Position numbers and translations under genes: made by a program
Shown here: piece by piece, positions 3,155-16,601 of the stretch
How positions within the stretch are numbered: position 1 is the stretch's first letter
Layout of the letters: each line of letters begins with the position of its first letter
DNA from: Fimbriimonas sp.
GTDB lineage: Bacteria > Armatimonadota > Fimbriimonadia > Fimbriimonadales > Fimbriimonadaceae
Assembly: GCA_031292555.1 (NCBI GenBank)
Contig: JARLGV010000035.1
Coordinates: 1-38,476, forward strand
Direction: 5' to 3'
DNA length: 38,476 nt
The notes under the pieces: model-generated
Seen by the model: only the letters and a program-made list of their open reading frames with translations
Told to the model about the DNA's origin: nothing
Database searches by the model: none

Positions 3155-3604
3155 ATGATCGTGCTGTCAAAACTTGCTTCGATAGTTGTACTGGCTTGCG
3201 TCGCACATTGGGCGTGTGGTTTCCAGGGGAAGCCGGCCGAAAGGCTGGTTGGGGTTGGGAACGTGGCGCAATTCAATCCATATCCAGGGAAGGCCCTAGC
3301 GGCGCATGGGATTCAGCCAATGGTGATCGGCGGGGCGGGAATCGATGGGTACTCGGTTCCGGCGAGCCAGGCCGCGAAGGCGCGCGCGGTGTTGATCGCC
3401 GACTGGCGTGCGCATCACTACTGCCTGACGATTCGGCTTGACCACAGCAAATGGAAGCACTACGACGGCAAAGTGGCCGATCCAATGGTGTACGACACGC
3501 CATACTCGCCGGCGTTCCTAAAGGAACGGTCCGATACCGCCAGGCGGCGGCTTATGGACCGCGGCAAGCACGGAAATAAGCCGATCGGGCGGTCCTTGTT
3601 CTAG
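3155..3604 (+). CDS. Small exported protein of unknown function
   Basis: 149 residues with an N-terminal hydrophobic segment (about 5-21, ASIVVLACVAHWACG) that looks like a signal peptide without a good lipobox. The mature part is basic and rich in Tyr and His. I recognise no family. A GGAGG at 3147-3151 sits only 3 bases before the ATG but 9 bases before an in-frame GTG at 3161, so GTG may be the true start. Its TAG stop shares the palindrome CTAG (3601-3604) with the stop of a gene fragment on the minus strand. Confidence 0.6.
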   Translation: MIVLSKLASIVVLACVAHWACGFQGKPAERLVGVGNVAQFNPYPGKALAAHGIQPMVIGGAGIDGYSVPASQAAKARAVLIADWRAHHYCLTIRLDHSKWKHYDGKVADPMVYDTPYSPAFLKERSDTARRRLMDRGKHGNKPIGRSLF

Positions 3605-3745
3605 TAGGCCGGCCCGATCTTGACATTACCCATCGGCGGTTTGAAGCAGTTGTTGGTGGCATCGGCGACGGTGACGCCGAACTGGAATTGGGTCTGAACA
3701 CCGTTGCCGGTTCCGATGCTCTGCGCCGGCGACGCAAATGTCCCA
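3601..3745 (-). pseudogene. C-terminal fragment of an unidentified gene joined to the AbiEii remnant
   Basis: In a minus-strand frame different from the AbiEii remnant, about 45 codons end at TAG (3603-3601) and read like natural protein: SIGTGNGVQTQFQFGVTVAD, then an NNCFKPPMG segment, ending GPAY. No start codon leads into it. The GTGNGVQTQFQF segment vaguely recalls phage tail proteins (GDGVTTTFQ type), but this is weak. The most economical reading is that a deletion or recombination replaced the 3' part of the AbiEii gene with the tail of another gene. Confidence 0.45.
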
Positions 3746-4018
3746 GAGGATCTCGGTGACGGCAGATACGTCGAATTGGCCGTACGCCAAGAAATCCATG
3801 TCCTTCGTGGCGCGAATTTGTGTTTTGCTCCAGACTTGAAACAGCATCGCCCCCTTCAAGATCAGAGCGGATCGGTGCGGGCTGCGGCCGAGTCGATAGA
3901 GAAATCGTTCCAGCACGTAGCGCCGTAGGACAAGGTTGTAGTTTTCGCCCCGTTGCTCTGCAATATTGAGCAGCCTTTGCCGGACCGATGCGGCCAGGCC
4001 CTTGTTCGGTTGACTCAT
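3735..4018 (-). pseudogene. Truncated AbiEii-type nucleotidyltransferase toxin
   Basis: The first ~95 residues fit the AbiEii toxin family of type IV toxin-antitoxin systems: YVLERFLYRLGRSPH, then LKGAMLFQVW and the nucleotidyltransferase acidic motif TKDMDFL. Similarity ends near ILWDIC. The sequence then runs out of frame into an unrelated tail, so most of the toxin (normally roughly 250-300 residues) is missing. The ATG overlaps the antitoxin stop as ATGA (4015-4018), the usual translational coupling of abiE operons. A toxin this short, without its C-terminal domain, is almost certainly inactive. Confidence 0.75.
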
Positions 4019-4617
4019 ATCGACATCGCTTCCATGTAGGGTCGCATAATATTCTCCACCCGATTGGTTTTCGCGTACTGCCGAAGTTCATCCCTGTTGC
4101 AGCGTCGTTCGCGTAGCACTTCTCGAAGTGCCTCTAGAGCAACGTCCAACCCGATCTTGTTGCGGAACTTAAAGCAGTCTGCAACCGTCTTCGCGATTGA
4201 GTAAACCGCCACGTCCACGCCTTCAAGCCTGTGCCATTCGATACCTGCCTCATAGCCGGGAGAAGTGGCGACGACGACTCGCAGAGAAAGGCCGTTGCTC
4301 TTGGCAATCCGGGTCCCGTATGGAATGGCAAGCCAAACCTGATAAGGTAGTTAAGTTCCGACATCGTGAAAGCTCAAAGCAGAAAGCAGGCATACCACGC
4401 CCTTGGATTGCCTGCGCACTGCCTCGACAAGGCTGTGAGACTCGGTGAATTCATGATCGGATAGCCTGTAAAGACCACGGGCCGCACGGGTGATGGCGCC
4501 TGCGGCAACCAAACCGCGGAGTTGGGAGTTGGTTGCCCCAAGTTGCTTCAGGTCGCTGGGGCGGATGATGCCCTGAGCCTTGGCAAGCGCAAGCACGCGT
4601 TCTTGTTTCTCAGTCAT
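4015..4617 (-). pseudogene. AbiEi-type antitoxin/regulator interrupted by an in-frame TAA
   Basis: A 201-codon frame with one stop, TAA at 4353-4351 (codon 89), where the context LSFHDVGT*LPYQVWLAIP strongly suggests an original CAA (Gln). The part before the stop is the winged-helix AbiEi_4-like DNA-binding domain (MTEKQERVLALAKAQGII...); the part after it is the AbiEi antitoxin domain (VVVATSPGYE, DVAVYSIAKTVADCFKFR, ending YMEAMSI). There is no frameshift. I chose the ATG at 4617 because longer in-frame starts would include the promoter. The partner toxin is also broken, so the module is dead or being lost. Confidence 0.85.
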
Positions 4618-4639
4618 ATATCGCCTAATAAGTCTATAA

Positions 4640-4668
4640 ATATTATCATTTTTAGACGCTTTAGTCAA
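4640..4668 (-). promoter_or_regulatory. Sigma-70-type promoter for the degenerate AbiE operon
   Basis: On the minus strand TTGACT (4668-4663) is followed after exactly 17 bases by TAATAT (4645-4640), 22 bases before the AbiEi ATG at 4617. This near-consensus promoter implies a leader of about 15 bases. The surrounding 60 bp is far richer in A+T than the neighbourhood. Confidence 0.7.
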
Positions 4669-4809
4669 TCTAAAGGATCCGAATGTTCTGAAGCGCACCA
4701 ATACGTCGATCCGGGCGGATGACCGAAAACGCCCGAAACGCCTAAAAATCTTCTCAGTTTTATGCGTTCAAGTCAAAAAAGAGATTGGGCGGTTTGAGGT
4801 TGACTGACG

Positions 4810-5716
4810 CTACCCCGCAGCCTGTGCCGCCCTCAAATGCCTATGCAGTTGCCGAGCGTGCTGCAAAGCCGTCTTGGAGTTGAAGTCGGCGTTTGTAGCT
4901 CCGTTGAACGTGACGTGCAAGTCCGTCTGGTTATGAACGCCTCCACCGACGGCCGAGTTGGGGATATCCGTGCCAGATCCTCGCGGATTGAGGATCTCCG
5001 GCCCGTTCTCTCCAACCCACATCGGCCCGCCACAGTCGTCGCCTCCGCTGTCGAATCCGGGAATGAACCGCATGAGGCTCATCGCGCTTGACAACACACT
5101 GCCCTTAGGACCGGCTATCCCAGGCAGACCGGCTGCAATTCCCGCCGCCACTCCGATCGAAGATGAGCCTGTCCCGCCCCCGGTCGGTGGAGTTCCTCCC
5201 ATTTGCTTGATCAGGGCGTTGATCGATTGCGTGAGGGTAGCAACATCTGACGTGTTTGCCTGCGAGGTCAGCCTGCAGCAGAGCCATTGCCATCGACGAA
5301 CTGCCCATCCGCCCGGAAAACGTCACCGGCGCCTGCGAGTTGAACGTCCGGTTCAGAGCCTGCATGTCTGCCCTGAGGCCGACAATGTCGGCACGCAGAA
5401 CGCCCGTGACGCCAGACATGTTGGCCAGAGCCGCCGCATAGGCTGCCACCGCAGCCGGGTCCATCGACCGACCAAGCCGCACGGCTGAACTAGCCAGACC
5501 CCTAAGCTCGTCCGTGAACGCCGACACACGCTCCGTCGCCCGAGTCAGAATCCCAGCCAGCCGATCGATCGCAGTGCCAACCGCATTGACTTCCCGGGTC
5601 GCTGATGATGCCACGTCGTCAATCGCAGTGAGCCCCGCCTGTACGCGCCGGTTCGCAGGATCAAACAAACTCGTGTTCCCCGTGAACAGCACGGAGAGTT
5701 CAGCAATCGCCGGCAT
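4810..5716 (-). pseudogene. Phage tail tape measure protein, very short and frameshifted
   Basis: The N-terminal frame (from ATG 5716) begins MPAIAELSVLFTGNTSLFD and carries helical, heptad-like sequence typical of tape measure proteins. The C-terminal frame contains SGGDDCGGPMWVGENGPEI, the well-known GPxxVGExGPE signature near tape measure C-termini. The two frames join by a +1 shift near TTT 5255-5257 (AAA on the coding strand); removing one A gives a continuous LLQADLAGNTSDVATLTQ. The reconstructed protein would be only about 302 residues, against usually 600-2,000, so the middle has probably been deleted too. It lies downstream of the tail chaperone gene in phage order, but an AbiE pair on the other strand separates them. 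Confidence 0.75.
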
Positions 5717-5764
5717 GGCTAATCTAGGGAGATCAAATGGCCAACGCGTTACCGCCTTGGCCTA

Positions 5765-5864
5765 GACTAATCGTATGCGAAATAAGACACCCTACCGGTG
5801 TTTATGCGTATGATTAGTCATATGCGAAATACAACATTCAGCGGCTGATTTTGCGTATAATTAG
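5765..5864 (+). promoter_or_regulatory. Inverted/direct repeat operator and leaderless promoter of the intact AbiE operon
   Basis: Four related copies of one motif occur. GACTAATCGTATGC (5765-5778) and GCGTATGATTAGTC (5806-5819) form an inverted repeat with 12 of 14 positions paired. TATGCGAAATA occurs at 5774-5784 and again at 5821-5831. A further inverted copy, TTGCGTATAATTAG, lies at 5851-5864 and contains a perfect TATAAT (5856-5861). That -10 box lies only 5 bases before the GTG start at 5867, so transcription would begin at or next to the start codon. AbiEi antitoxins are known to repress their operon by binding inverted repeats, so these are probable operator sites. Confidence 0.65.
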
Positions 5865-5866
5865 TT

Positions 5867-6682
5867 GTGAGCTCGATTGAGGCATTTCTGGATGAGCAGC
5901 TTGTAAGCGGACGATCCTACTTCTCTCTCGATGAGGCCGTCCGACAGCACTCCATGTCGCCTCAGGCCTTTGCCGCCGCTGCACGCAGACTGATCAAGAA
6001 GCAGAAACTGATTAGGCCAAGACAAGAGTTCTTTGTGATTCAGCGTCCCGAGGATCGAATTGCAGGACCGGACCCGGTTAAGTGGATCGACGGGTTGATG
6101 AAGTACCAGAAAATTGACTACCGGATTTCTTTGCTGAGCGCTGCTGCGCATCACGGATCGTCCCACCAATCGGCGATGGTGTTTCAGCTTGTTGTTCCCA
6201 AGCAGTTGCGCGGAATTCAAGTCGGCCGGCACCGCTTGCAGTTTGTGTATCAGAAGGCGCCGATCTTCAACAAGGTCAACCGGTCCGACTGGGTAGGTCA
6301 GATCAAGAGCGACGAGGGATTTGCGAAGGTCGCCGGGGTCGAACTGACCCTTCTTGATTCGATGCGCTACTACCGTAGCGCTGGCGGAATCGATGGAGTC
6401 GCCCAAATGTCGAAGGACATAGGTGGTAATGCGAATCCACGAAAACTGGCTCAGGTTGCCGCCGGCTATGAGAACTCGACGGTGAGACGACTCGGTTATC
6501 TGTTGGAGCTTTCAGGGCACGAACGGCAAGCTCATGCGCTGTTGCCGTTTGCTGCCAAGGCCAGCTCAATTCAACCCCTCAATCCATCGGTTATGTCGAG
6601 CCCATCGCTCGCAATGGATCGGCATAAGAAGGACGAGACGTGGCGCCTCGACATCAATCAAGTCGTGGAGATTGACAGTTGA
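5867..6682 (+). CDS. AbiEi-family antitoxin / autorepressor of a type IV toxin-antitoxin system
   Basis: 271 residues. The N-terminal third is a winged-helix-like region (SYFSLDEAVRQHSMSP..., ARRLIKKQKLIRPRQEFF), followed by an AbiEi-type antitoxin domain (KYQKIDYRISLLSAAAHHG, VELTLLDSMRYY). The GTG start is supported by the adjacent TATAAT promoter and the antitoxin length. The stop codon overlaps the TTG start of the downstream AbiEii gene (TTGA, 6679-6682), the standard coupled arrangement. It should neutralise the toxin without direct protein contact and repress its own promoter through the repeats at 5765-5864. It is transcribed against the surrounding phage tail operon and is inserted between chaperone and tape measure genes. 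Confidence 0.85.
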   Translation: MSSIEAFLDEQLVSGRSYFSLDEAVRQHSMSPQAFAAAARRLIKKQKLIRPRQEFFVIQRPEDRIAGPDPVKWIDGLMKYQKIDYRISLLSAAAHHGSSHQSAMVFQLVVPKQLRGIQVGRHRLQFVYQKAPIFNKVNRSDWVGQIKSDEGFAKVAGVELTLLDSMRYYRSAGGIDGVAQMSKDIGGNANPRKLAQVAAGYENSTVRRLGYLLELSGHERQAHALLPFAAKASSIQPLNPSVMSSPSLAMDRHKKDETWRLDINQVVEIDS

Positions 6683-7545
6683 TTCCACGAGCACACCTTC
6701 AAGCATGGAGGAACCATACTCCGTGGCCAGATCTCCGGCAGGTTGAGCAGGACCTGATCATTTGCCGGGCCTTGTGCGATCTCTTCACTTTTTCCGCGCT
6801 TAAGGGAAAGATTGCCTTCCGTGGCGGAACCGCGATTCATAAACTGCTGTTCCCGACGCCCCTGCGCTACTCGGAAGACATCGACCTGGTCCAAATCCAA
6901 GCTGAGCCTAGCGGCAAGACGATCGATGCAATTCGAGATGCGCTCTCATGGCTTGGAAAGTGTCGGCGAACTCAAGCGGCTCACTCTACGCATCTCGTCT
7001 TCCAATTCGAGCCCGAATCTAACCCTGGCGCAAAGCTAAAGCTTAAGGTGGAATTCAATACCCGAGAGCACGAGAGCCTACTGGGGCTCAAAGAGTATCC
7101 ATTCCAGATCGACAATCCTTGGTTCAGCGGCAAGGCGAACATAGTGTCGTTCGAAGCGGAGGAACTGTTTGGCACGAAGCTGCGTGCCCTCTTACAGCGT
7201 CATAAGAATCGCGACCTGTTCGATATGCAAGAAGGGCTAAAGCAGCTGAACATGGATCTCGACAAGCTGATAGCGGTGTTCGAGCACTATCTCGCGCTTC
7301 AAGATAGCCCGATCAGTCGCGCGGAGGCAGAGATGGTTATGGTTGGCAAATTGAGGCGGAGCCTGACCGACGATATTGCGCCGCTGCTTCCTGCCGGAGT
7401 CGTCTACGATCACCGTGAATCGGTTAGAGCCTTCAACATGGTTTGGACCGATCTAATCTCCCGAATATCGGGAGACGGTTGGAAGAATTCCGAGCAAGTC
7501 ATCGCGGAACTTCGAGCAGGAAGGTATCCAGACCTTCTAAAGTGA
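6679..7545 (+). CDS. AbiEii-family nucleotidyltransferase toxin
   Basis: 288 residues starting MIPRAHLQAW, a start well conserved in this family, from a TTG codon overlapping the antitoxin stop. The nucleotidyltransferase core is intact: RGGTAIHKLLF (residues 48-58) followed by RYSEDIDLV with the two metal-binding Asp at 67 and 69, then KLKVEFNTRE and an EELFGTKLRALLQRHKNRD helix. The C-terminal part is helical as in AbiEii. These toxins transfer nucleotides to cellular RNA targets and cause abortive infection. The gene ends 13 bp from the convergent end of the tail-chaperone extension (7559), so the module is inserted with almost no spare DNA. Confidence 0.9.
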   Translation: MIPRAHLQAWRNHTPWPDLRQVEQDLIICRALCDLFTFSALKGKIAFRGGTAIHKLLFPTPLRYSEDIDLVQIQAEPSGKTIDAIRDALSWLGKCRRTQAAHSTHLVFQFEPESNPGAKLKLKVEFNTREHESLLGLKEYPFQIDNPWFSGKANIVSFEAEELFGTKLRALLQRHKNRDLFDMQEGLKQLNMDLDKLIAVFEHYLALQDSPISRAEAEMVMVGKLRRSLTDDIAPLLPAGVVYDHRESVRAFNMVWTDLISRISGDGWKNSEQVIAELRAGRYPDLLK

Positions 7546-7558
7546 GGGAAGGCATTGA

Positions 7559-7831
7559 TCAAGGAGCCGGAAAGGCGCGCCTCAGCGCCTTGGAATTGGC
7601 TTCACTGTAGGCGGAGAAGCAGGCGAACACCACTGCTCCGAGGCCTGGATATTCGTCGACACCCCAAAGCCAAGGGACGTTTCTCAAAGAGTCTTGAAGG
7701 CGCCCTTCGGAATCTTGAAGATTCGCAAAGACGGCGGCCCACCATGGGCAGGCGGCAACGCCGGGCTCATTTGGAGGAACTCCGCCTTTGTACCAAATGA
7801 AGAGCCACTCCTCGAGATCCCTTACTTCGCT
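7559..7831 (-). CDS. Frameshift extension (T part) of the tail assembly chaperone
   Basis: Reading in the -1 frame from the slippery site gives 90 further codons to TGA at 7561-7559, with protein-like sequence (EVRDLEEWLFIWYKGGVPP, then PWWAAVFANL and PWLWGVDEYPG) and no start codon of its own. This matches the G/GT arrangement of siphophages, where a few percent of ribosomes slip and make a longer chaperone needed for tail assembly. The fused product would be about 237 residues. It fills the apparently empty space between the upstream chaperone stop (7822) and the AbiEii gene. Confidence 0.75.
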   Translation of the reverse strand, partial: SEVRDLEEWLFIWYKGGVPPNEPGVAACPWWAAVFANLQDSEGRLQDSLRNVPWLWGVDEYPGLGAVVFACFSAYSEANSKALRRAFPAP

Positions 7832-8271
7832 TTTGGGACCAGGGGCACCTTTGCCACCTCGTCCAAGATGCTCTCCAGCATCTCCGTAGGGACCTTCGAA
7901 TCGTAGAGAGGTTGGGCTGAAAGCGGCATCGGGGCGCCGTCGTCGTCGACCAAGTCGGTCTCGATGATCGATTGCGAGAACCGTTCGCAGACCTGCATCC
8001 GCTCGTCGCTGGCAATGGCGATCTCAAGCTGGTTGGCAAGGTTCTGCATCGCCAGAATCTCGTCGTCTTCGCTGAGTGGCTCCGCCTCCTTGTTCTTCCG
8101 CCGCGAGATCAAATCGTCAATCGCCGACTTGCCCTCAAACAACTTGGCCCGCGCCTGTTGAATTGGTGCCGGGTCCTTGTAAAGCTTTTCAGTGATCTTA
8201 ATGGGCGTCCCAAAGATCCGAATTTCAAGCTCGCGTACCGCAAGCGGAATGATAAGATTGTAATTAGCCAT
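7822..8271 (-). CDS. Phage tail assembly chaperone (lambda gpG analogue)
   Basis: 149 residues, acidic and helical, starting MANYNLIIPLAVRELEIRIFG and ending LVPKAK. Family assignment rests on three points: its place between the tail tube and tape measure genes, its size, and the slippery heptamer just before the stop that opens a second overlapping frame. I see no enzyme motif. A Shine-Dalgarno sequence is not obvious, so it may have relied on coupling to an upstream gene that is now displaced by the 3-kb defence insert. Confidence 0.7.
   Translation of the reverse strand: MANYNLIIPLAVRELEIRIFGTPIKITEKLYKDPAPIQQARAKLFEGKSAIDDLISRRKNKEAEPLSEDDEILAMQNLANQLEIAIASDERMQVCERFSQSIIETDLVDDDGAPMPLSAQPLYDSKVPTEMLESILDEVAKVPLVPKAK
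7831..7837 (-). promoter_or_regulatory. -1 ribosomal frameshift slippery site CCCAAAA
   Basis: The coding strand reads GTC CCA AAA GCG AAG TAA. C CCA AAA fits the X XXY YYZ rule, letting both tRNAs re-pair one base back as CCC AAA. The zero-frame stop follows two codons later (7824-7822), and the -1 frame stays open for 90 codons. The position at the 3' end of the tail chaperone gene is exactly where phages place this signal. Confidence 0.75.
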
Positions 8272-8461
8272 AAGTGAAAATGGTGCTGACCAGAGTTCGG
8301 GGTTTGGTCTTGCAGAGATCGATGAGGCTCAGTAGAACGGTCGTTGCGATTAGTCGGCCCAGCCTGTCGGACCTAAACTGATTCGAGGCGTAGTGCCAAT
8401 TGCTGCGCTTCTACCTAATCAAGTGGCTCCCGACCTTGTAGTCAGTTATCATAGGAGTGCG

Positions 8462-9604
8462 ATGACAAACCTTGCGCAACTAGGAAGCAAAATCCAGCGG
8501 TTTCGCGTGCAAATGGTGTTGTCCGAGGATGAAGTTGAGGAAAGAACCGGCATCAGTGCCGACATTATCAAGGGCATTGAGTCTGGAACTTCGGCGCCGT
8601 CCGGAGACCAGCTTTTAATTCTTGCCGAATTGTTCAACCAAGACTACAAGTACTTCTTATCGAATGACGTGCAGTCGCCGCTTGAACAGACGGAATCCCT
8701 ATATAGAAGATATGGCAACTATCTCAGCCGCGAAGACCGATGGGCGATCCAAGAGGTTCTGTTTTTTTGCGAGACGGAAGAATATCTCCAGAATGAACTT
8801 GGCCGACGTAAAAGGCAGTTGCCTTCTGTCGACATATCGGGAACGTACTTCAAAGCCCACGGCTGGACTGCCGCAAAGCAAATCCGTGCCGCTCTTGACC
8901 AGGCAGGCAAACAAGTACCAGTCAATGTCTTTCAGCTTTTTAGGAGCCTAGGCATTCATATATTCCGACGTCGCCTGTCAACGTCGGAGGTATCTGGCAT
9001 TTTCATGAAGCATCCAGTAGCAGGACCATGCATCCTTGTGAATTACCATGAAGACGAGTATCGGCAGCGGTTTACTGTTGCCCATGAAGCAGCACATGCG
9101 ATCTTGGATGCATCTGAGACTGACCCACTGGTGACCCTCAACTCAGACCACAGCGCCCTTCGTGAAGTTAGAGCAGATGCGTTCGCCGGTGCATTCCTAG
9201 TAGCTCCCGCAGCAATTTCCGAGCTTTCTTTAGATTCAATGTCCCGTGACTCGTTTATAGCGATATGCCACAAGCTAAGGGTCAATGCAAAGACTCTCCT
9301 AATCGCGTTTGAGGCGTTCAACGGGGCCAACAATGAGGCAACTCAACGCTTTTCCGATATCAAACTCGCTCGATCAACCAAGGATGATCCGGAACTCGGG
9401 CCGGATCTCACCGACGCTGGTCGAGCACGTAGGCAAGCCCTGCTTGAACGAGGGTTGTCCTACCCGTATCTTCGACTATGTTTGGATGCCTACCGCGAAG
9501 ATAAGATTTCGCTTCTGCGTTTGTCCGAAGTGCTTCTAATGGACCTGGATGAAACAATACAAGTAATGCGTAGTTTTGGTGAGGTGGTGCGACATCGCGA
9601 TTGA
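8462..9604 (+). CDS. XRE-family regulator fused to ImmA/IrrE (M78) metallopeptidase
   Basis: 380 residues from ATG 8462, preceded by AGGAG at 8453-8457. Residues 5-65 are a helix-turn-helix domain of the XRE type. Residues about 195-255 carry the zinc peptidase motif HEAAH (208-212) with a downstream acidic ligand in LREVRADAFAGAFLV. Fusions of this kind (COG2856) usually act as antitoxins or regulators beside a small toxin, or as regulators that cleave phage repressors. Here the next gene starts inside its last codons and encodes a PIN-like protein, so a toxin-antitoxin pair is likely. An upstream in-frame GTG (8393) was rejected for lack of a ribosome site. Confidence 0.85.
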   Translation: MTNLAQLGSKIQRFRVQMVLSEDEVEERTGISADIIKGIESGTSAPSGDQLLILAELFNQDYKYFLSNDVQSPLEQTESLYRRYGNYLSREDRWAIQEVLFFCETEEYLQNELGRRKRQLPSVDISGTYFKAHGWTAAKQIRAALDQAGKQVPVNVFQLFRSLGIHIFRRRLSTSEVSGIFMKHPVAGPCILVNYHEDEYRQRFTVAHEAAHAILDASETDPLVTLNSDHSALREVRADAFAGAFLVAPAAISELSLDSMSRDSFIAICHKLRVNAKTLLIAFEAFNGANNEATQRFSDIKLARSTKDDPELGPDLTDAGRARRQALLERGLSYPYLRLCLDAYREDKISLLRLSEVLLMDLDETIQVMRSFGEVVRHRD

Positions 9605-10181
9605 TGTAACTTCATTCCTCCTGCTCAACGTTACCGACACTTGTGCCGTTTGGAATCTGCTTTCTTCGGGAACCCTCAACCGGGCCGCGAAGAATGCAAG
9701 ATGTAAATTCTGCATCACTGAATACGTGCGGTTTGAATGTCTTATTAAGACGAGATCTAACCCAGATAAACAGCAGATAGAGCTGCAGCGAAGGCTAAAA
9801 GCGGCTATCTCGACCGCTCAAATATCAATCCATTCGATCTCTCTCGAAGACCTATTGGAGGTGGAAGTGCTAGAAACTCGAAAGCAGTTAGGACGAGGCG
9901 AGATAACGACAGTTCTGTTTGCGAAAACGACGAATCAGGCTGCAATGTCGGATGATGGTGGTGCGCGAGAACTTGCCTCGGACATGCTTGGAGTGCCGAG
10001 ATCTCAGACGACTTGCCACTTATTCGGATGGCTCTTTTACACGGGCCATCTTGTCGACCACGAGCGCGTTGATATTCAGAACGAGCACATCGCAATGGGG
10101 CGTCCATTAGCTCCTCATTTCGACGTCGCGTACGAAATGGCGATGAGAGCAAAGCTGTATGATAGTCAAAAGAAGACGTAA
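9579..10181 (+). CDS. PIN-like putative toxin paired with the XRE-ImmA protein
   Basis: About 200 residues. The order of acidic motifs is PIN-like: an early Asp in NVTDTCAVWNLLSSG, Glu in ITEYVRFECL, Glu in GRGEITTVLFA, and paired Asp in MSDDGGARELA. PIN proteins of toxin-antitoxin systems are Mg-dependent RNases. The start is uncertain: no ATG fits, and GTG 9579 (or TTG 9576) overlaps the end of the upstream gene by about 26 bases, implying coupled translation. It ends 26 bp from the convergent end of the restriction endonuclease gene. The toxin role is inferred from domain and pairing. Confidence 0.7.
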   Translation: MRWCDIAIDVTSFLLLNVTDTCAVWNLLSSGTLNRAAKNARCKFCITEYVRFECLIKTRSNPDKQQIELQRRLKAAISTAQISIHSISLEDLLEVEVLETRKQLGRGEITTVLFAKTTNQAAMSDDGGARELASDMLGVPRSQTTCHLFGWLFYTGHLVDHERVDIQNEHIAMGRPLAPHFDVAYEMAMRAKLYDSQKKT

Positions 10182-10207
10182 CCCCAAATGCCGATACTTC
10201 GGATTGT

Positions 10208-11224
10208 CTATTCCCCGAGGAATACTCCGGAGCCGGGTGTTCGCATTGCCTCGACCCAAACCTTTAGCGTTTTTCGGTTGGCTTCGCCAATGGGGTATGA
10301 GCGAGCGGAGTTTACAGCAACTGCCCCTTTTGCTAGTCTGCTCGTTGTAACAATCAGGCCCGCGCTTGCGCTTTCATGCGAGACGTCCGCGTAAAGCGCC
10401 TTGACGACGACCTGTTCAACTGTCGCCTTCTGCCGCTTGCATTGGATCAGAACTGTTGGAGGTTTGTCTTGTTGGCCCGTGGTTGGCCATATTCGAATAT
10501 CGACCCCACCGTCTTTTCGTCCCGGACCGACCTCGACGTGAAACCCGAGTCGATCGAAAAATTCAGCAGTTAAGCCCTCGAATTGCCTCCAGTGGACTTG
10601 GTCGATATCGTTGAAATTCCGTTCGAGATAGGTGACAAACCTTTGATCGAAGAACTCACCATATTGCGTCGCAAGATGTTCACTTTTGAAGAGGTCATCA
10701 AGCTCGCGCGTGTCTTTCCAATCCACCTGGCGAATCTTTCCCCACGGACTGTGCTCTTGGGACTCTGCGAGCAACTTGATGAATTCAATGGACATGAGGC
10801 AACCTGCGGGGCCATATAGTCGCATTGCCTCATCCAAATATGGTTCAGGGTCGATCCTCTTAGTCCCTGACTGTTCCGCCGACTGCATCAGTTGATCGAA
10901 CATGTCCATGAAAAGTTGCTGAACCTTATTCGACAGGTCTAAAGCCTTAGCATCTTTTTTGTATTGATGGAAAAGGGCAATCCCGGGAGGCATATTCACG
11001 GGACTATCAACAACGCCAACCCGATACAGCAACTGCGACACCATCTCTTCGAATTCCTCAGATCGAATTCGAAGACCATCATCGTCGCGGCCATAAAATC
11101 GATTTCCTTGTCGTGCAAGATGGCCAAGAATCTGTGCTCGGTTTAGTGCGAGTCCAGATTTATATCCAACGATTTCGCTCAATGTCGAAATGACGGCACG
11201 ACGCGACATCCATGCAGCACCCAT
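10208..11224 (-). CDS. Mrr-like restriction endonuclease (PD-(D/E)XK)
   Basis: 338 residues. The C-terminal third is a Mrr_cat-type nuclease: WRQFEGLTAEFFDRLGF (residues 212-228) supplies the helix with the conserved Glu, followed by D242 in KDGGVDIRI and the Q-x-K motif (Q261, K263) in VLIQCKRQ, then a helix ending in LIVTTSRLAKGA. This is the fold used by type IV modification-dependent endonucleases. The N-terminal 200 residues are helical and not recognised, possibly a target-sensing or dimerisation domain. It lies on the phage-gene strand immediately after the tail tube gene, facing the XRE-ImmA/PIN pair, and forms a small defence island with them. Confidence 0.85.
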   Translation of the reverse strand: MGAAWMSRRAVISTLSEIVGYKSGLALNRAQILGHLARQGNRFYGRDDDGLRIRSEEFEEMVSQLLYRVGVVDSPVNMPPGIALFHQYKKDAKALDLSNKVQQLFMDMFDQLMQSAEQSGTKRIDPEPYLDEAMRLYGPAGCLMSIEFIKLLAESQEHSPWGKIRQVDWKDTRELDDLFKSEHLATQYGEFFDQRFVTYLERNFNDIDQVHWRQFEGLTAEFFDRLGFHVEVGPGRKDGGVDIRIWPTTGQQDKPPTVLIQCKRQKATVEQVVVKALYADVSHESASAGLIVTTSRLAKGAVAVNSARSYPIGEANRKTLKVWVEAMRTPGSGVFLGE

Positions 11225-11261: not shown

Positions 11262-12614
11262 TCAGGCCGCCGAGTACGACTCCAACTCGTTGATCGCGGT
11301 AATGCGCCGGCAGAAGATGCCGTTCACGTCGAATAGATTTTCCAGATCAAACTCGCAAGTGCGAATGTTGCCTTGTCCCTCGCCATTGGCCGTCTTCCAC
11401 TCCACTGAGCAGAAGTAGTCGAACGCGAGCGATCGATTCACGCCGGTAATTCCAATCTCAGGACCCGTGAACAAGATCCGGAAGTAGAGCCCGTTCCCCA
11501 CCAACCGAGACCCCGCGATAAAGCCGGCAACTTCCGCCGTATACGCCAGCATCATCGACTGCATGTGCTTCTGGTCGGCAGCCTTTTTCTCCGAAATCCC
11601 GCCCGGCCCAACGTCGGTTGGATTCTGCCGCCAAACAAACTCCCAGCGATCTCCAACCTGCAGATCCGTCTTGTACTGATTCACCGGTGTCGTAGGCGAA
11701 TTGTCCAAGCCGGCCATTGAAGCGGCCCATCCGATCGAGATGTCTCCCGGCATGACCTCAAACGACGGGTTCATCTTCATGCCCCCGACCGTCGTATGCA
11801 CCCAAGCCGCCGAAGCGCCTCCGTTCAAGCCCGCAGTTAAAACCGAGTACTCCTGAACGGCAATTCCATTCTCATCCGTGACAGCGTAAGGCCCGCCTGC
11901 CCCGCCGCTAACTAGAGCCGTCGCATGCCCTCCGCCCAAGGCACGAAAAGCCGACTGAAAGGTCGCCGCAGTAGCGCCATAGGCGATCGGTGCCGTCTGC
12001 TGATTATCGGCAACGACGATGAAAGTCCCGCCCGTCGCGTCGGTGAGGGTAAGCGTCTGAACGTCGTTCTGTCCGGTGCTCGCCACAATCGGGTCACCGC
12101 CAGAATCAGCGTCTTGGATCGCCTTGGCGATGGCGGAGGCTTCGAATGTAAGCGGCTTGTCGCGCTCGGTCCCGATCTTGTATCCCGTGAACAGAAGCCC
12201 GTTGACCTTTTGCACGCGGTCGCCCACCGATCCTGGGAATTCGACCGTGTACGTCTGGGCCGTATCAGCGTTGTAAGCCGATGACTCCCACACGTGCTGG
12301 TAGACGCCCGTAACCGGTTCGCCCCCCGGGGAATAGGCGCCCTCTGTCGGCAGACCCTCGACGCCCGAGAGGACATATCCAACGTCGATGTAGTCGAGGA
12401 TCCCCTTAACGGACGCCTTTGACGTCTCCTTGACCGTGTTGCTGCGAATGAGGTACTTCAGACCCTGAGTTCCGGTCGCCGACTTGGTCTGTTCGGGCGC
12501 AGGGTCGAACGTCTCGATGTTGATCAGGAGCCGGGTCGCTGCGGCATTCACGCCGAATCCCCCGCTCTCGATGCCGAATTGTGGCTTGACTAGACTAAGT
12601 AGGGGTGCTCCCAT
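11262..12614 (-). CDS. Phage tail tube protein with an inserted beta-sandwich module
   Basis: 450 residues, preceded by AGGAG 10 bases before the ATG. The position after the terminator-like gene, the sequence style (FPGSVGDRVQKVNGLLFTGY, KPLTFEASAIAK, then FEVMPGDISIGWAASM and LVGNGLYFRILFTGPEIG) and the start NIETFDPAPEQTKSATGTQG all fit a major tail tube protein. Residues about 182-265 are different: QTLTLTDATGGTFIVVADNQ with APIAYGATAATFQSAFRAL and GGAGGPYAVT, a module otherwise seen as tandem repeats in secreted surface proteins of several phyla. It is probably a decoration domain on the tube. The frame is intact. Confidence 0.7.
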   Translation of the reverse strand: MGAPLLSLVKPQFGIESGGFGVNAAATRLLINIETFDPAPEQTKSATGTQGLKYLIRSNTVKETSKASVKGILDYIDVGYVLSGVEGLPTEGAYSPGGEPVTGVYQHVWESSAYNADTAQTYTVEFPGSVGDRVQKVNGLLFTGYKIGTERDKPLTFEASAIAKAIQDADSGGDPIVASTGQNDVQTLTLTDATGGTFIVVADNQQTAPIAYGATAATFQSAFRALGGGHATALVSGGAGGPYAVTDENGIAVQEYSVLTAGLNGGASAAWVHTTVGGMKMNPSFEVMPGDISIGWAASMAGLDNSPTTPVNQYKTDLQVGDRWEFVWRQNPTDVGPGGISEKKAADQKHMQSMMLAYTAEVAGFIAGSRLVGNGLYFRILFTGPEIGITGVNRSLAFDYFCSVEWKTANGEGQGNIRTCEFDLENLFDVNGIFCRRITAINELESYSAA

Positions 12615-12644: not shown

Positions 12645-13253
12645 CTATTGGACTCGAAACTGGTATTGGTGGCCAACCATGACGTTGAAACCGCCGTGGG
12701 CGGGCTCGATCATCTGGTAGGCGAATTGCTGAAAGGCGGCAAACTGAAAGGTGCGGCCGTCCGCCAAGGTGACGACTTCATTGCGGGCGTCGAGCAAACT
12801 CACGAGCCTGAGCGATCCGTCTTCGAGGTGTCCGTTTGAGCCGCCGACCTTATCGATGGAACCGCCATGCTGCCGATCGAGTATGCACACCACGAAAGTC
12901 GGCTGCGATTCTGCTCGCCCTGCCCGGCCGTCTTGACGCTTGACGTCTCTGCCCGGCGCTTGCATCCACCATCGCACGCAAGGGAAGCAGAGTTGCCAAG
13001 CTGCCGGAGAAGTCGTCGGGCTGTTCCCAACGTTGCCATTGATCAGCGAATGGTAAGGCTGCTCGTCAGGGCCATTCGCCATGTCGCCGAACGCATACGT
13101 GAGCGTCCCTTTCCAAGACTTGTTGACCACCTGGTCCGGATCGTTCGCCCAAAACCCACCCGGCGCATATTCCCGAAGCAAGGCGTCGACCGACAACACG
13201 CCAAAAAGCCACCGATCGGCGTCGGTCACGAGATACGGTTGGCCTGCTGCCAT
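12645..13253 (-). CDS. Phage tail completion/terminator-position protein with a carbohydrate-binding-like motif
   Basis: 202 residues in one open frame, 30 bp before the tail tube gene and 3 bp after the gp10-like gene, so it sits where siphophages place the tail terminator. Residues 67-86 (YHSLINGNVGNSPTTSPAAW) match the Y-x-S-L...N-x-G-N-x-P...S-P-x-x-W motif of CBM5/12-like modules that often decorate phage tail fibres and chitinases. The rest (DADRWLFGVLSVDALLREYA, TLADGRTFQFAAFQQFAYQM) is not recognised by me. The presence of this motif in a terminator is unusual. Confidence 0.55.
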   Translation of the reverse strand: MAAGQPYLVTDADRWLFGVLSVDALLREYAPGGFWANDPDQVVNKSWKGTLTYAFGDMANGPDEQPYHSLINGNVGNSPTTSPAAWQLCFPCVRWWMQAPGRDVKRQDGRAGRAESQPTFVVCILDRQHGGSIDKVGGSNGHLEDGSLRLVSLLDARNEVVTLADGRTFQFAAFQQFAYQMIEPAHGGFNVMVGHQYQFRVQ

Positions 13254-13256
13254 AGC

Positions 13257-13694
13257 TCAAATCCGATCCAACTCGGCCGGTATAGCCGCAACGTGTTGCT
13301 GAACCGTTTCCTCACCAACAACCGAAGCTGGCCCAAGAAACGGCCGAGGTGCCATCTTCGAAGTGCCGAGCTCCAGGTAAACCCCGTACTCCGCACCCAC
13401 CGCCGCCTCAGCCCCAATACCAATAATCTCGGGCTCCAGATTCACGTGGATCGAATCGTGAAGCACCTCAAACTGATTGACCGGCGCCTCACCCGGCGCC
13501 GAAGACCGGTTCGGCAGCCGAGGATATTTCCGCCCAGAACCAGCCTGCTCCGCAATCTGCTCCCGAGCGTCCTCCACCGTCGCCTCAGCCCCAGCAACGC
13601 ACGCCAACCGCGCCTGTTCCACGATGACCTGCTCGAACTCGTCGAGCTTATTGATGCGAAGAGACGAGGACGCTTGCAACATCGGACTAGTCAC
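13257..13694 (-). CDS. HK97 gp10-like phage head-tail / tail completion protein
   Basis: About 145 residues. The signature GVYLELGTSKMAPRPFLGPA near the C-terminus is characteristic of the HK97 gp10 family, which works at the head-tail joint in siphophages. The N-terminal half is helical and acidic (DEFEQVIVEQARLACVAGAE). The longer open frame to 13892 adds unlikely sequence. I prefer GTG 13694, which has GGAG 10 bases upstream, with ATG 13682 as an alternative. The stop lies 3 bp before the next phage gene. Upstream, about 2.9 kb of non-phage genes separate it from the head-tail adaptor. Confidence 0.8.
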   Translation of the reverse strand: MTSPMLQASSSLRINKLDEFEQVIVEQARLACVAGAEATVEDAREQIAEQAGSGRKYPRLPNRSSAPGEAPVNQFEVLHDSIHVNLEPEIIGIGAEAAVGAEYGVYLELGTSKMAPRPFLGPASVVGEETVQQHVAAIPAELDRI

Positions 13695-13929
13695 GCTTAT
13701 TCGACTCCAAGACTCATGGGACGTCGCTTCCACGCCTATTGAAATACAGTACAGTTCAACCAAAAAAGTCAAACCAGTTGCAATTCGCGACAACGGCGCC
13801 TCTAGGATCTTCACTGGTATCGCTGAATAGGAATTCACTGGTGTGACAATCCGAAACGCCCGATTTCCCCGCGTGAGCCTGCGACGTATCACTGCGCGGT
13901 AAGCGCCCCGTCAACAGGAACACCCTCTC

Positions 13930-14418
13930 CTATCTGATCTGCTCGAACAGCTTTCGCTGCGTCGGTTTCAGCCAAACGTCATCCGGAACCATGGGGCCAC
14001 CAGGCTTAAACAGGACTTTCCCATAATCTTTCGTTTGGATCACCAATCTTTTGCCATCGGACACGGCCTTATTGCTGAGCAGCTTTATTGTCGTGTTGTG
14101 TACCTTAAATGAGGTAATAGTTCCCTGAGCCTTGGAAGCGTCACTGTAGGTTTGTGTCATCTTGCCGCCTCGCAGCAAGTAGCCTTCATTCAGATTGCTT
14201 ATCTCCCACGTAATATTGATGCCCAAGGCTTCCGAATCCACGTGCTCGAATTTCTCGTCTGCGGCAGCGGCCAAAGCAGTTTGCGGTGACGTTTTAGCAG
14301 TGCTTTCCTGATTCCCGCCCTCTCTTGGGCCACAGGATATGACGGCAATGACAGCAAAACCACAAGCCAAAACTCGTCTGAAGCGCGTCACTAAGGGGAG
14401 GTGGAGGAAAATCATCAC
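13930..14418 (-). CDS. Predicted lipoprotein of unknown function
   Basis: 162 residues with a basic N-terminus (TRFRRVLACGFAVIAVISCG) and a lipobox-like VISC cysteine at about residue 29, followed by a Gly/Gln/Ser-rich linker, so probably a lipoprotein. The mature domain (about 110 residues, containing INITWEISNLNEGYLLRGGK and TTIKLLSNKAVSDGKRLVIQ) reads as a beta-rich fold. I recognise no family. It is divergent from the ankyrin-repeat gene and belongs to an island of three exported or membrane proteins between phage genes. Base composition is visibly lower in G+C than the flanking enzymes. Confidence 0.65.
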   Translation of the reverse strand: MMIFLHLPLVTRFRRVLACGFAVIAVISCGPREGGNQESTAKTSPQTALAAAADEKFEHVDSEALGINITWEISNLNEGYLLRGGKMTQTYSDASKAQGTITSFKVHNTTIKLLSNKAVSDGKRLVIQTKDYGKVLFKPGGPMVPDDVWLKPTQRKLFEQIR

Positions 14419-14568
14419 TCGCTATTCCCCTGCAAGTAGGATTCTTCGATTGGTGGGCAGCCAGCACCCAATTCAAATCGGATAGACAGCATTGAACCTC
14501 TTGCAGTCATTGTCCGAAGTATACTCAAATTCCCCCTTGTTGAAGGGATGCCGAAGTAACAAACGAGC

Positions 14569-15516
14569 ATGAACGCAGACGACACCGCAGAACGCAAGCC
14601 AAGCAAAATGAAAAGGCAAAGTACTCGATGGTATCATATTGGTGTAGCAGTTTTATTGCCTGTAGTGGGATTGCCTTGGGGCCTGTTCAATCTCACGAGG
14701 AGCAAAAGCCGCGGCTCTGGTCTCGCAATGATAGCTTTGTCCAGCGTCACCGTGCTGGGCGCCGCAGCGGTCCCTCCCGATTTCATATCGGAATACAAAC
14801 GGCAATCGTCAGCTTCGCGCTCTAGAGCAAACGATGCCCTCATGGTTTATGCCTCCACTGGAGACGTCGATCACGTCAAATCGCTCCTGGCGCCCCCATC
14901 GTTTGAATGGGGCAAGGATCCGGCTAGCTATGACAGCGTTGGCGCATTCTTGGCGACAGCGATGGTCTCTATGTCCCCTGCGCTGCGTAGGCCTGACGTC
15001 AACATGGAGGACAGATTGGGTCTGACACCTTTGATGGAGGCCACGGGAATATTTAGTGGCATTGATTCAGCCTTTCAGAGCGTTCATGGGCACGGGACGG
15101 GAAATGCGGAAATTGTAAGAGTACTGATCGCCGCAGGAGCGAAAGTGAATGCACAGAACACCCACGGTGAAACAGCATTGACATTGGCGGATTCACCAGA
15201 AGTCATATCCGCAATAAAGAACGCCGGAGGGAGGTCAGAAGCTTTTCGTCTGTTAGTGCCTGACGATAAACTAGATTTCAGATTCTCAAGTGCCGGCTCA
15301 GTGCAAACGAATTCCGGAATCACGACGTTCGAGCAACCTCACTTAACATGCAAAGACGTCAACGGTAAACCGTACGAAATAGAACTAGATGGGGCCAACG
15401 TTACTGACGAGTTGGAAACAAAACAATTTGGTAGGATACTCCTGGATTCAAGAGGAGCACTTCGCCTCCGAGATAGCCAAATCAAGAAAATAAGGACCCT
15501 TCTTGCCTTTAAGTGA
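14569..15516 (+). CDS. Membrane-anchored ankyrin-repeat protein
   Basis: 315 residues. Two hydrophobic segments (about 22-44 and 51-69) are joined by a short basic loop (NLTRSKSRGSG). They are followed by ankyrin-like repeats: ALMVYASTGDVDHVKSLL, a degenerate unit around DRLGLTPLMEATGIFSG, and a clear unit EIVRVLIAAGAKVNAQNTHG followed by ETALTLADSPEV. The last 100 residues form an unrecognised beta-rich domain. It probably mediates protein contacts at the membrane. Nothing in the sequence ties it to phage assembly. Confidence 0.7.
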   Translation: MNADDTAERKPSKMKRQSTRWYHIGVAVLLPVVGLPWGLFNLTRSKSRGSGLAMIALSSVTVLGAAAVPPDFISEYKRQSSASRSRANDALMVYASTGDVDHVKSLLAPPSFEWGKDPASYDSVGAFLATAMVSMSPALRRPDVNMEDRLGLTPLMEATGIFSGIDSAFQSVHGHGTGNAEIVRVLIAAGAKVNAQNTHGETALTLADSPEVISAIKNAGGRSEAFRLLVPDDKLDFRFSSAGSVQTNSGITTFEQPHLTCKDVNGKPYEIELDGANVTDELETKQFGRILLDSRGALRLRDSQIKKIRTLLAFK

Positions 15517-15698
15517 TCAGTGGAGCCCACGATATAGACCATCATCCATTGTTCGTCTGGCCGAAAGGATGAACTGAGCCAGTCTCCCCCTCCCCAACAA
15601 GTCGGTCGCCATCCAATTGTCGATCTCGGAGTTAAGCCGTGCGTCAGGATCACGCACCACTCTAATGCGGCGGCTTGAATTCAGGATCTAACAATGAA

Positions 15699-16601
15699 TT
15701 AGGGTTCGAACTGCTTCAGATCAATCTTCTCGAAGATCGGTGGGGGGCCGGCGGAAACACAATAGTATAAGCAAGATGAACTGAGTTCAATTGCCTTGCC
15801 TCCATTGCCAAATATAGGGGGACCGTAAACTGCTGTGCCAAAAAGTGGAATCGTAGATTCCTCGAATTTGACTGCATTGCCCTTTATTGAGAAAGGACTC
15901 GCCCCTTTGGGGTACCCAAACAGATTCATCCCCCATGAAAACCCCTGGACGGTGCCGAGCCCCGAAAAACTGTCGACTTTATTACCCCAAACCTTAACGT
16001 TGGCGCTCAACGTTAGCGAGTATGTCCCGCTGCCCTCCTCTGCCTTCTTCAGTCGAGCGAGTTCAGCGGAAGAAAGACCCCCGTAAACTAGTGTCATCCC
16101 GGTCGGAATCCTCTGCTGCTGGCGAAGGAAATCGATTTCTGGCTTGCTTGCCGTAAGCAAGAACCCCGGAACAGCCACTCCTTCCTTGCCCTTTGAGACA
16201 AGCCATTTGACTGGGGGACCATCCAGCTTCTTGAGAAGCTTGACCTCATCTCCGAATGACAAAACTGCTCTGCCATTTCCTGACGTTGTGTACTGTTTGT
16301 CTTCGCTTGCGTACGTTAAACGCTTTACTCGCACATACGCAGTCCCACCTTCCTTCAAGGTGGGTAATTGAACAATATCGACAGGCCTAGCACGGTTGGT
16401 CGCAGATGGCGGATTTGGAGCACTCACCGTCGATTCATCCGACGATGAGCAACCGCTTTGCATAACAACAATCAACCATACGAATCCAATTGTAGTAGCC
16501 TTCTGTCTCATTCGAACTGCCTGCGCCCTTTGGGCCTCAGCCATATTATCACGGGCTTTCCGCGATTTGTTGCGTCTCCATGGTATTCGAAGGCTCGCCA
16601 A
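15699..16601 (-). CDS. Predicted lipoprotein of unknown function
   Basis: Up to 300 residues. The likely start is the Met at residue 31 (ATG at 16511), which gives MRQKATTIGFVWLIVVMQSG followed by CSSSDES, a good lipoprotein signal peptide with cysteine at the cleavage site. The longer form would add a basic 30-residue leader. The mature part begins with a Pro/Ser linker, then a beta-rich region (VLSFGDEVKLLKKLDGPPVK, GTAYVRVKRLTYASEDKQYT) and ends FEKIDLKQFEP. No family is recognised. It is the third member of the exported-protein island at 13.9-16.6 kb. Confidence 0.65.
   Translation of the reverse strand: MASLRIPWRRNKSRKARDNMAEAQRAQAVRMRQKATTIGFVWLIVVMQSGCSSSDESTVSAPNPPSATNRARPVDIVQLPTLKEGGTAYVRVKRLTYASEDKQYTTSGNGRAVLSFGDEVKLLKKLDGPPVKWLVSKGKEGVAVPGFLLTASKPEIDFLRQQQRIPTGMTLVYGGLSSAELARLKKAEEGSGTYSLTLSANVKVWGNKVDSFSGLGTVQGFSWGMNLFGYPKGASPFSIKGNAVKFEESTIPLFGTAVYGPPIFGNGGKAIELSSSCLYYCVSAGPPPIFEKIDLKQFEP

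Follow-up and report, generated by a model that had tools for sequence, protein, structure and literature searches.

The DNA analysed here (hereafter the window) spans positions 1 to 38,476 of contig JARLGV010000035.1 of Fimbriimonas sp. (GenBank assembly GCA_031292555.1). Its minus strand carries a series of phage tail genes. One of them is a 149-codon ORF whose place is between the major tail protein gene and the tape measure gene, with inserted cassettes intervening on either side (Table 1). Close to its 3' end, this ORF contains a slippery heptamer of the XXXYYYZ type, C CCA AAA, in a phase that fits a -1 slip. A preliminary inspection of the DNA (the sequence-only reading) had placed this heptamer two codons ahead of the zero-frame stop and had described a 90-codon open -1 frame ending 13 bp from the AbiEii gene. 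All of these details were borne out: the heptamer (7837-7831) is followed by GCG AAG TAA, and the -1 frame runs for exactly 90 codons before it reaches a TGA (7561-7559), with the end of AbiEii at 7545. No clear Shine-Dalgarno sequence was found before the start codon of the ORF (window positions 8272-8330), and the gap between this gene and the upstream major tail protein gene is made up of inserted genes, so that the signal for translation of the chaperone gene may have been lost.

Table 1. Features of the tail gene region (window coordinates; L032 is phage contig IMGVR_UViG_3300031788_000069)
Feature	Coordinates	Strand	Evidence and remarks
Putative zero-frame tail assembly chaperone (gpG-like), 149 aa	7822..8271	-	ORF; position between the genes of major tail protein and tape measure shared with L032
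Slippery heptamer C CCA AAA	7831..7837	-	in phase; same in L032; CCCAAAA/C in G137, G100, G108 and G125
Zero-frame stop TAA	7822..7824	-	two codons past the heptamer
Putative -1 frame extension (gpT-like), 90 codons plus TGA	7559..7831	-	fusion of 237 aa
Major tail protein, 450 aa, intact	11262..12614	-	phrog_10909, E 1.3e-9; 61% identical to L032
Two neck/tail-completion genes, intact	12645..13892	-	phrog_5, E 6.5e-8 for 13257-13892
Tape measure, N-terminal remnant	5105..5716	-	comparison with L032 (residues 1-177)
Tape measure, C-terminal remnant, another frame	4810..5202	-	comparison with L032 (residues 1170-1266)
AbiEi/AbiEii toxin-antitoxin pair, between chaperone and tape measure remnant	5867..7545	+	PF09407, E 7e-21; PF08843, E 4e-25

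The major tail protein of the window led us to its closest relative, an IMG/VR phage contig (L032), and comparison with this contig revealed the extent of prophage decay. The two neck/tail-completion genes are 64% and 57% identical to their neighbours in L032, and their order is kept. The tape measure gene, which the sequence-only reading had described as broken, is indeed reduced to its two ends, lying in different frames, with approximately 990 residues missing relative to the intact L032 protein (1267 aa). The missing part was not detected elsewhere in the assembly in a search with L032 residues 1-580. Only about 40 residues remain of the gene that follows the tape measure, and the contig lacks most head and distal tail genes. 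Since the tape measure is gutted and most of these other genes are absent, the tail module is almost certainly non-functional in this genome, which makes the chaperone gene an intact relic. The chaperone, major tail and neck genes are all open despite the broken tape measure, as would be expected if the host had kept the tail module for a new role (a domesticated tail), with the chaperone and tail-tube genes still under selection. However, we regard such retention as very unlikely, given the state of the tape measure and of the gene after it and the interruption of the operon by cassettes; moreover, a search of 291 genomes of the phylum revealed no further genome with a close relative of the chaperone gene.

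The cassettes (window positions 3552-11224 and 13930-16601) occupy the gaps between tail genes and leave the neck, major tail and chaperone genes uninterrupted. They contain ankyrin and lipoprotein-like ORFs, an Mrr-type endonuclease, an HTH-IrrE (ImmA-like) protein with an ORF weakly matching PIN next to it on its 3' side, the AbiE pair, and a second, truncated AbiE pair (AbiEi_4 plus an AbiEii fragment). It is worth mentioning that unrelated extra genes are present between the chaperone and the tape measure in three phages: AbiE in the window (5867-7545), an ORF with a weak zinc-ribbon match in L032 (10182-11069), and a DUF6941 protein together with another gene in L051 (3457-4577). This suggests that the gap is a cargo spot.

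Directly 3' of its major tail protein gene, L032 also carries a 149-codon ORF, with CCCAAAA two codons before a TAA and a 90-codon -1 extension. The 237-aa fusions of the window and L032 align over 237 columns with no gaps (46% identity); there are no indels between the two genes and the stop position is common to both. The slip site, GTCCCAAAAGCGAAGTAAGGGA, is identical in the two over 22 nt, while the DNA of the zero-frame part is 53% identical; an identical run of this kind was obtained in only 0.25% of codon-permutation trials (P = 0.0025). When the DNA was scanned for the slip site, the only match was in the L032 contig. L032 differs from the window in its intact tape measure and in having another extra gene in the gap between the chaperone and the tape measure. 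The decay of the surrounding prophage might invite the view that an indel or a sequencing error had broken a single-frame chaperone, leaving a pseudogene frameshift, but the same split, at the same base and with an identical heptamer, is found in a separate metagenomic contig whose tape measure is complete, and we give this explanation practically no credence.

The conservation of the extension is higher than that of the chaperone body, both in amino acid identity (57%, 51/90, in the extension versus 40%, 59/147, in the zero-frame part) and in substitution pattern. Neither of the two outcomes that the sequence-only reading had named as refuting was observed: the -1 frame of L032, the closest relative, contains no stops, and the extension has a homologue in the -1 extension of the L032 chaperone. 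The nucleotide differences between the two extensions are distributed as 32, 21 and 52 over the three codon positions of the -1 frame. Read in this frame, the extension gives pN 0.29 and pS 0.72 (dN 0.36, dS above 2.5), whereas in both other frames pN exceeds pS (and dN exceeds dS); the corresponding values for the zero-frame part are pN 0.41 and pS 0.69. With dS near saturation in this pair, dN/dS is approximately 0.32 in the zero frame and 0.14 in the -1 frame. The comparison of synonymous and nonsynonymous changes shows that purifying selection acted on both frames over the window and L032 lineages taken together, and the pattern by frame shows that the extension is coding and is kept as a protein.

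The question of whether this protein segment requires a frameshift was addressed by inspecting possible start codons. Counted from the beginning of the extension, the -1 frame contains no ATG, GTG or TTG over 48 codons in the window and over 21 in L032, and the motif PKSEVRDxEEWL, conserved in both, precedes the first possible -1 start. With no start codon ahead of this motif, only a frameshift can express the segment. The feature that would speak for a separate -1 protein made by reinitiation or translational coupling is the short overlap of the two frames, a few codons long, of the kind seen in coupled genes; the lack of a start before the conserved residues in both phages is difficult to reconcile with such a protein. 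A related possibility is that the shift occurs in transcription, but a run of four A residues is short for transcriptional slippage. Taken as one explanation, these routes seem to us highly improbable.

An open -1 frame is by itself weak evidence, since a frame of this length is often open by chance: 90 codons stayed open in 8.6% of the sequences produced by dinucleotide shuffling of the extension, and in 19% of slices drawn at random from the window. The heptamer CCCAAAA is not enriched in the window either (3 occurrences versus 4.5 expected). These figures are what could be cited for a -1 frame open by chance in GC-rich coding DNA next to a coincidental heptamer. We also scored the combination of an in-phase slippery heptamer no more than 30 codons from the stop, a continuous -1 frame, and at least 50 codons past the stop. 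It was sought in 746 stop-to-stop frames with a length of 150 codons or more, taken from all retrieved loci (redundant loci included). A single non-chaperone ORF showed this combination, the remaining matches being the gene described here or its relatives. Conservation of the chaperone frameshift in an independent phage, with the extension kept as protein and a coding substitution pattern in the -1 frame only, removes the remaining doubt and leaves coincidence with a negligible probability.

Relatives of the major tail protein were also identified in five other genomes of the phylum. In each of these prophages a gene of 112-135 codons lies between the major tail protein and the tape measure, and carries an in-phase heptamer followed by a -1 extension of 67-79 codons: CCCAAAC in G137 (75 codons), G108 (79 codons) and G125 (72 codons), CCCAAAA in G100 (67 codons) and CCCTTTA in G077 (79 codons). 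A PWW motif is shared by the extensions of the window and L032 and by two of these five extensions. The extension profile of the window pair gave no significant match to those of the five prophages (hhalign E 0.064), and the zero-frame parts matched the gpG-position proteins only weakly (one pair, hhalign E 6e-4, probability 28%), so that homology across the whole set is indicated mainly by gene order. The programmed -1 frameshift with a gpGT-like extension, originally proposed for the window, is supported by its relatives. In addition, two loci (L053, 2621-4921, and L054, 11534-13828) encode major tail proteins of approximately 765 aa with an extra N-terminal part of about 300 residues, which the 450-aa protein of the window does not have.

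Searches with the chaperone itself were less informative. No chaperone family of Pfam or PHROGs matches the zero-frame part or the extension; weak Pfam matches to MR_MLE_C and FolB were far under the cut-offs and were discarded. Direct protein searches with the 237-aa fusion detected nothing real, whether in the 291 genomes of the phylum, among viral contigs or among GenBank phages, and the same was true of a search of genome contigs with the two-sequence (window and L032) alignment. A plasmid search revealed no relatives. No stimulatory RNA structure was found downstream of the slip site beyond the level of shuffled controls (z 0.05 and -0.46). Confidence in the structure models is modest (pLDDT 69 and 59), and they matched no solved structures. 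The AlphaFold model of the zero-frame part (pLDDT 69) is mainly helical, and its best viral fold match (BFVD) is protein O80209 of the archaeal siphophage psiM2 (E 0.0058, probability 1.00), which we took as ORF19 by its length (189 aa).

The gene coding for psiM2 ORF19 (L065, NC_001902, 13209-13948) is annotated as hypothetical. Its neighbours are a structural protein gene on one side and the tape measure on the other. It contains AAAAAAG in phase, followed by a -1 extension of 55 codons, so that it has the appearance of a chaperone frameshift that went unannotated in an archaeal phage. With the window it shares the weak fold match of the zero-frame part, the gene position, the in-phase slippery run and the -1 extension; its heptamer is different, and no sequence similarity is established.

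This arrangement is known from the G/GT tail assembly chaperone pair of phage lambda (Levin 1993; Xu 2004, 2013, 2014, as reviewed in PMC5009743). There, the tape measure protein is bound by gpG and by the G portion of gpGT, and the tail tube protein by the T portion (PMC5009743). The gene of the window resembles the lambda pair in its position just ahead of the tape measure and in the -1 frame of the extension, but it uses CCCAAAA as a putative slip site and has no detectable match to described chaperone families. Such a match is not a defining feature of these proteins, since the frameshift is conserved among tailed phages although the ORFs share low sequence similarity (PMC5009743). The layout, with a slippery site at the 3' end of gpG, is also that of gpG/gpGT of TP901-1, a lactococcal phage in which the heptamer is GGGAAAG and the slippery site was mutated experimentally (PMC4493119), whereas the gene of the window is known from its sequence. 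We are confident that this gene, which resides in a decayed prophage, encodes a lambda G/GT-type tail assembly chaperone of a siphophage, with a putative -1 slip.

By analogy with lambda, most ribosomes would terminate at 7822 to give the 149-aa gpG-like protein, while a minority would presumably slip by -1 on C CCA AAA, with tRNA-Pro re-pairing with CCC and tRNA-Lys with AAA, to produce the 237-aa gpGT-like fusion; both the slippage and its low efficiency are predicted. The zero-frame domain may coat the tape measure protein, and the -1 domain may recruit the major tail protein.

The sequence-only reading had also held that the tail genes were under selection until recently. The selection itself is upheld by the purifying pattern in both frames over the two lineages; for its recency, the data give an upper bound only. 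A random substitution in the 237 chaperone codons has a chance of about 3.7% of producing a stop; since the frames are open, the time since inactivation is at most approximately 0.11 neutral substitutions per site (95%, no stops seen, indels ignored). With two sequences compared, the selection is not assignable to one branch and the loss is not datable; recent selection on the chaperone frames is consistent with these observations.

Judged from the compared sequences, the frameshift chaperone is real, conserved and of a well-known class, and otherwise represents ordinary phage biology. Routine gene calling would overlook the extension because it lacks a start codon. With this finding, the tail chaperones that apparently rely on a -1 slip gain a sequence-divergent gpG/gpGT family from phages of Armatimonadota. 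It also shows that gene order combined with an in-phase heptamer finds tail chaperones where Pfam and PHROGs fail.
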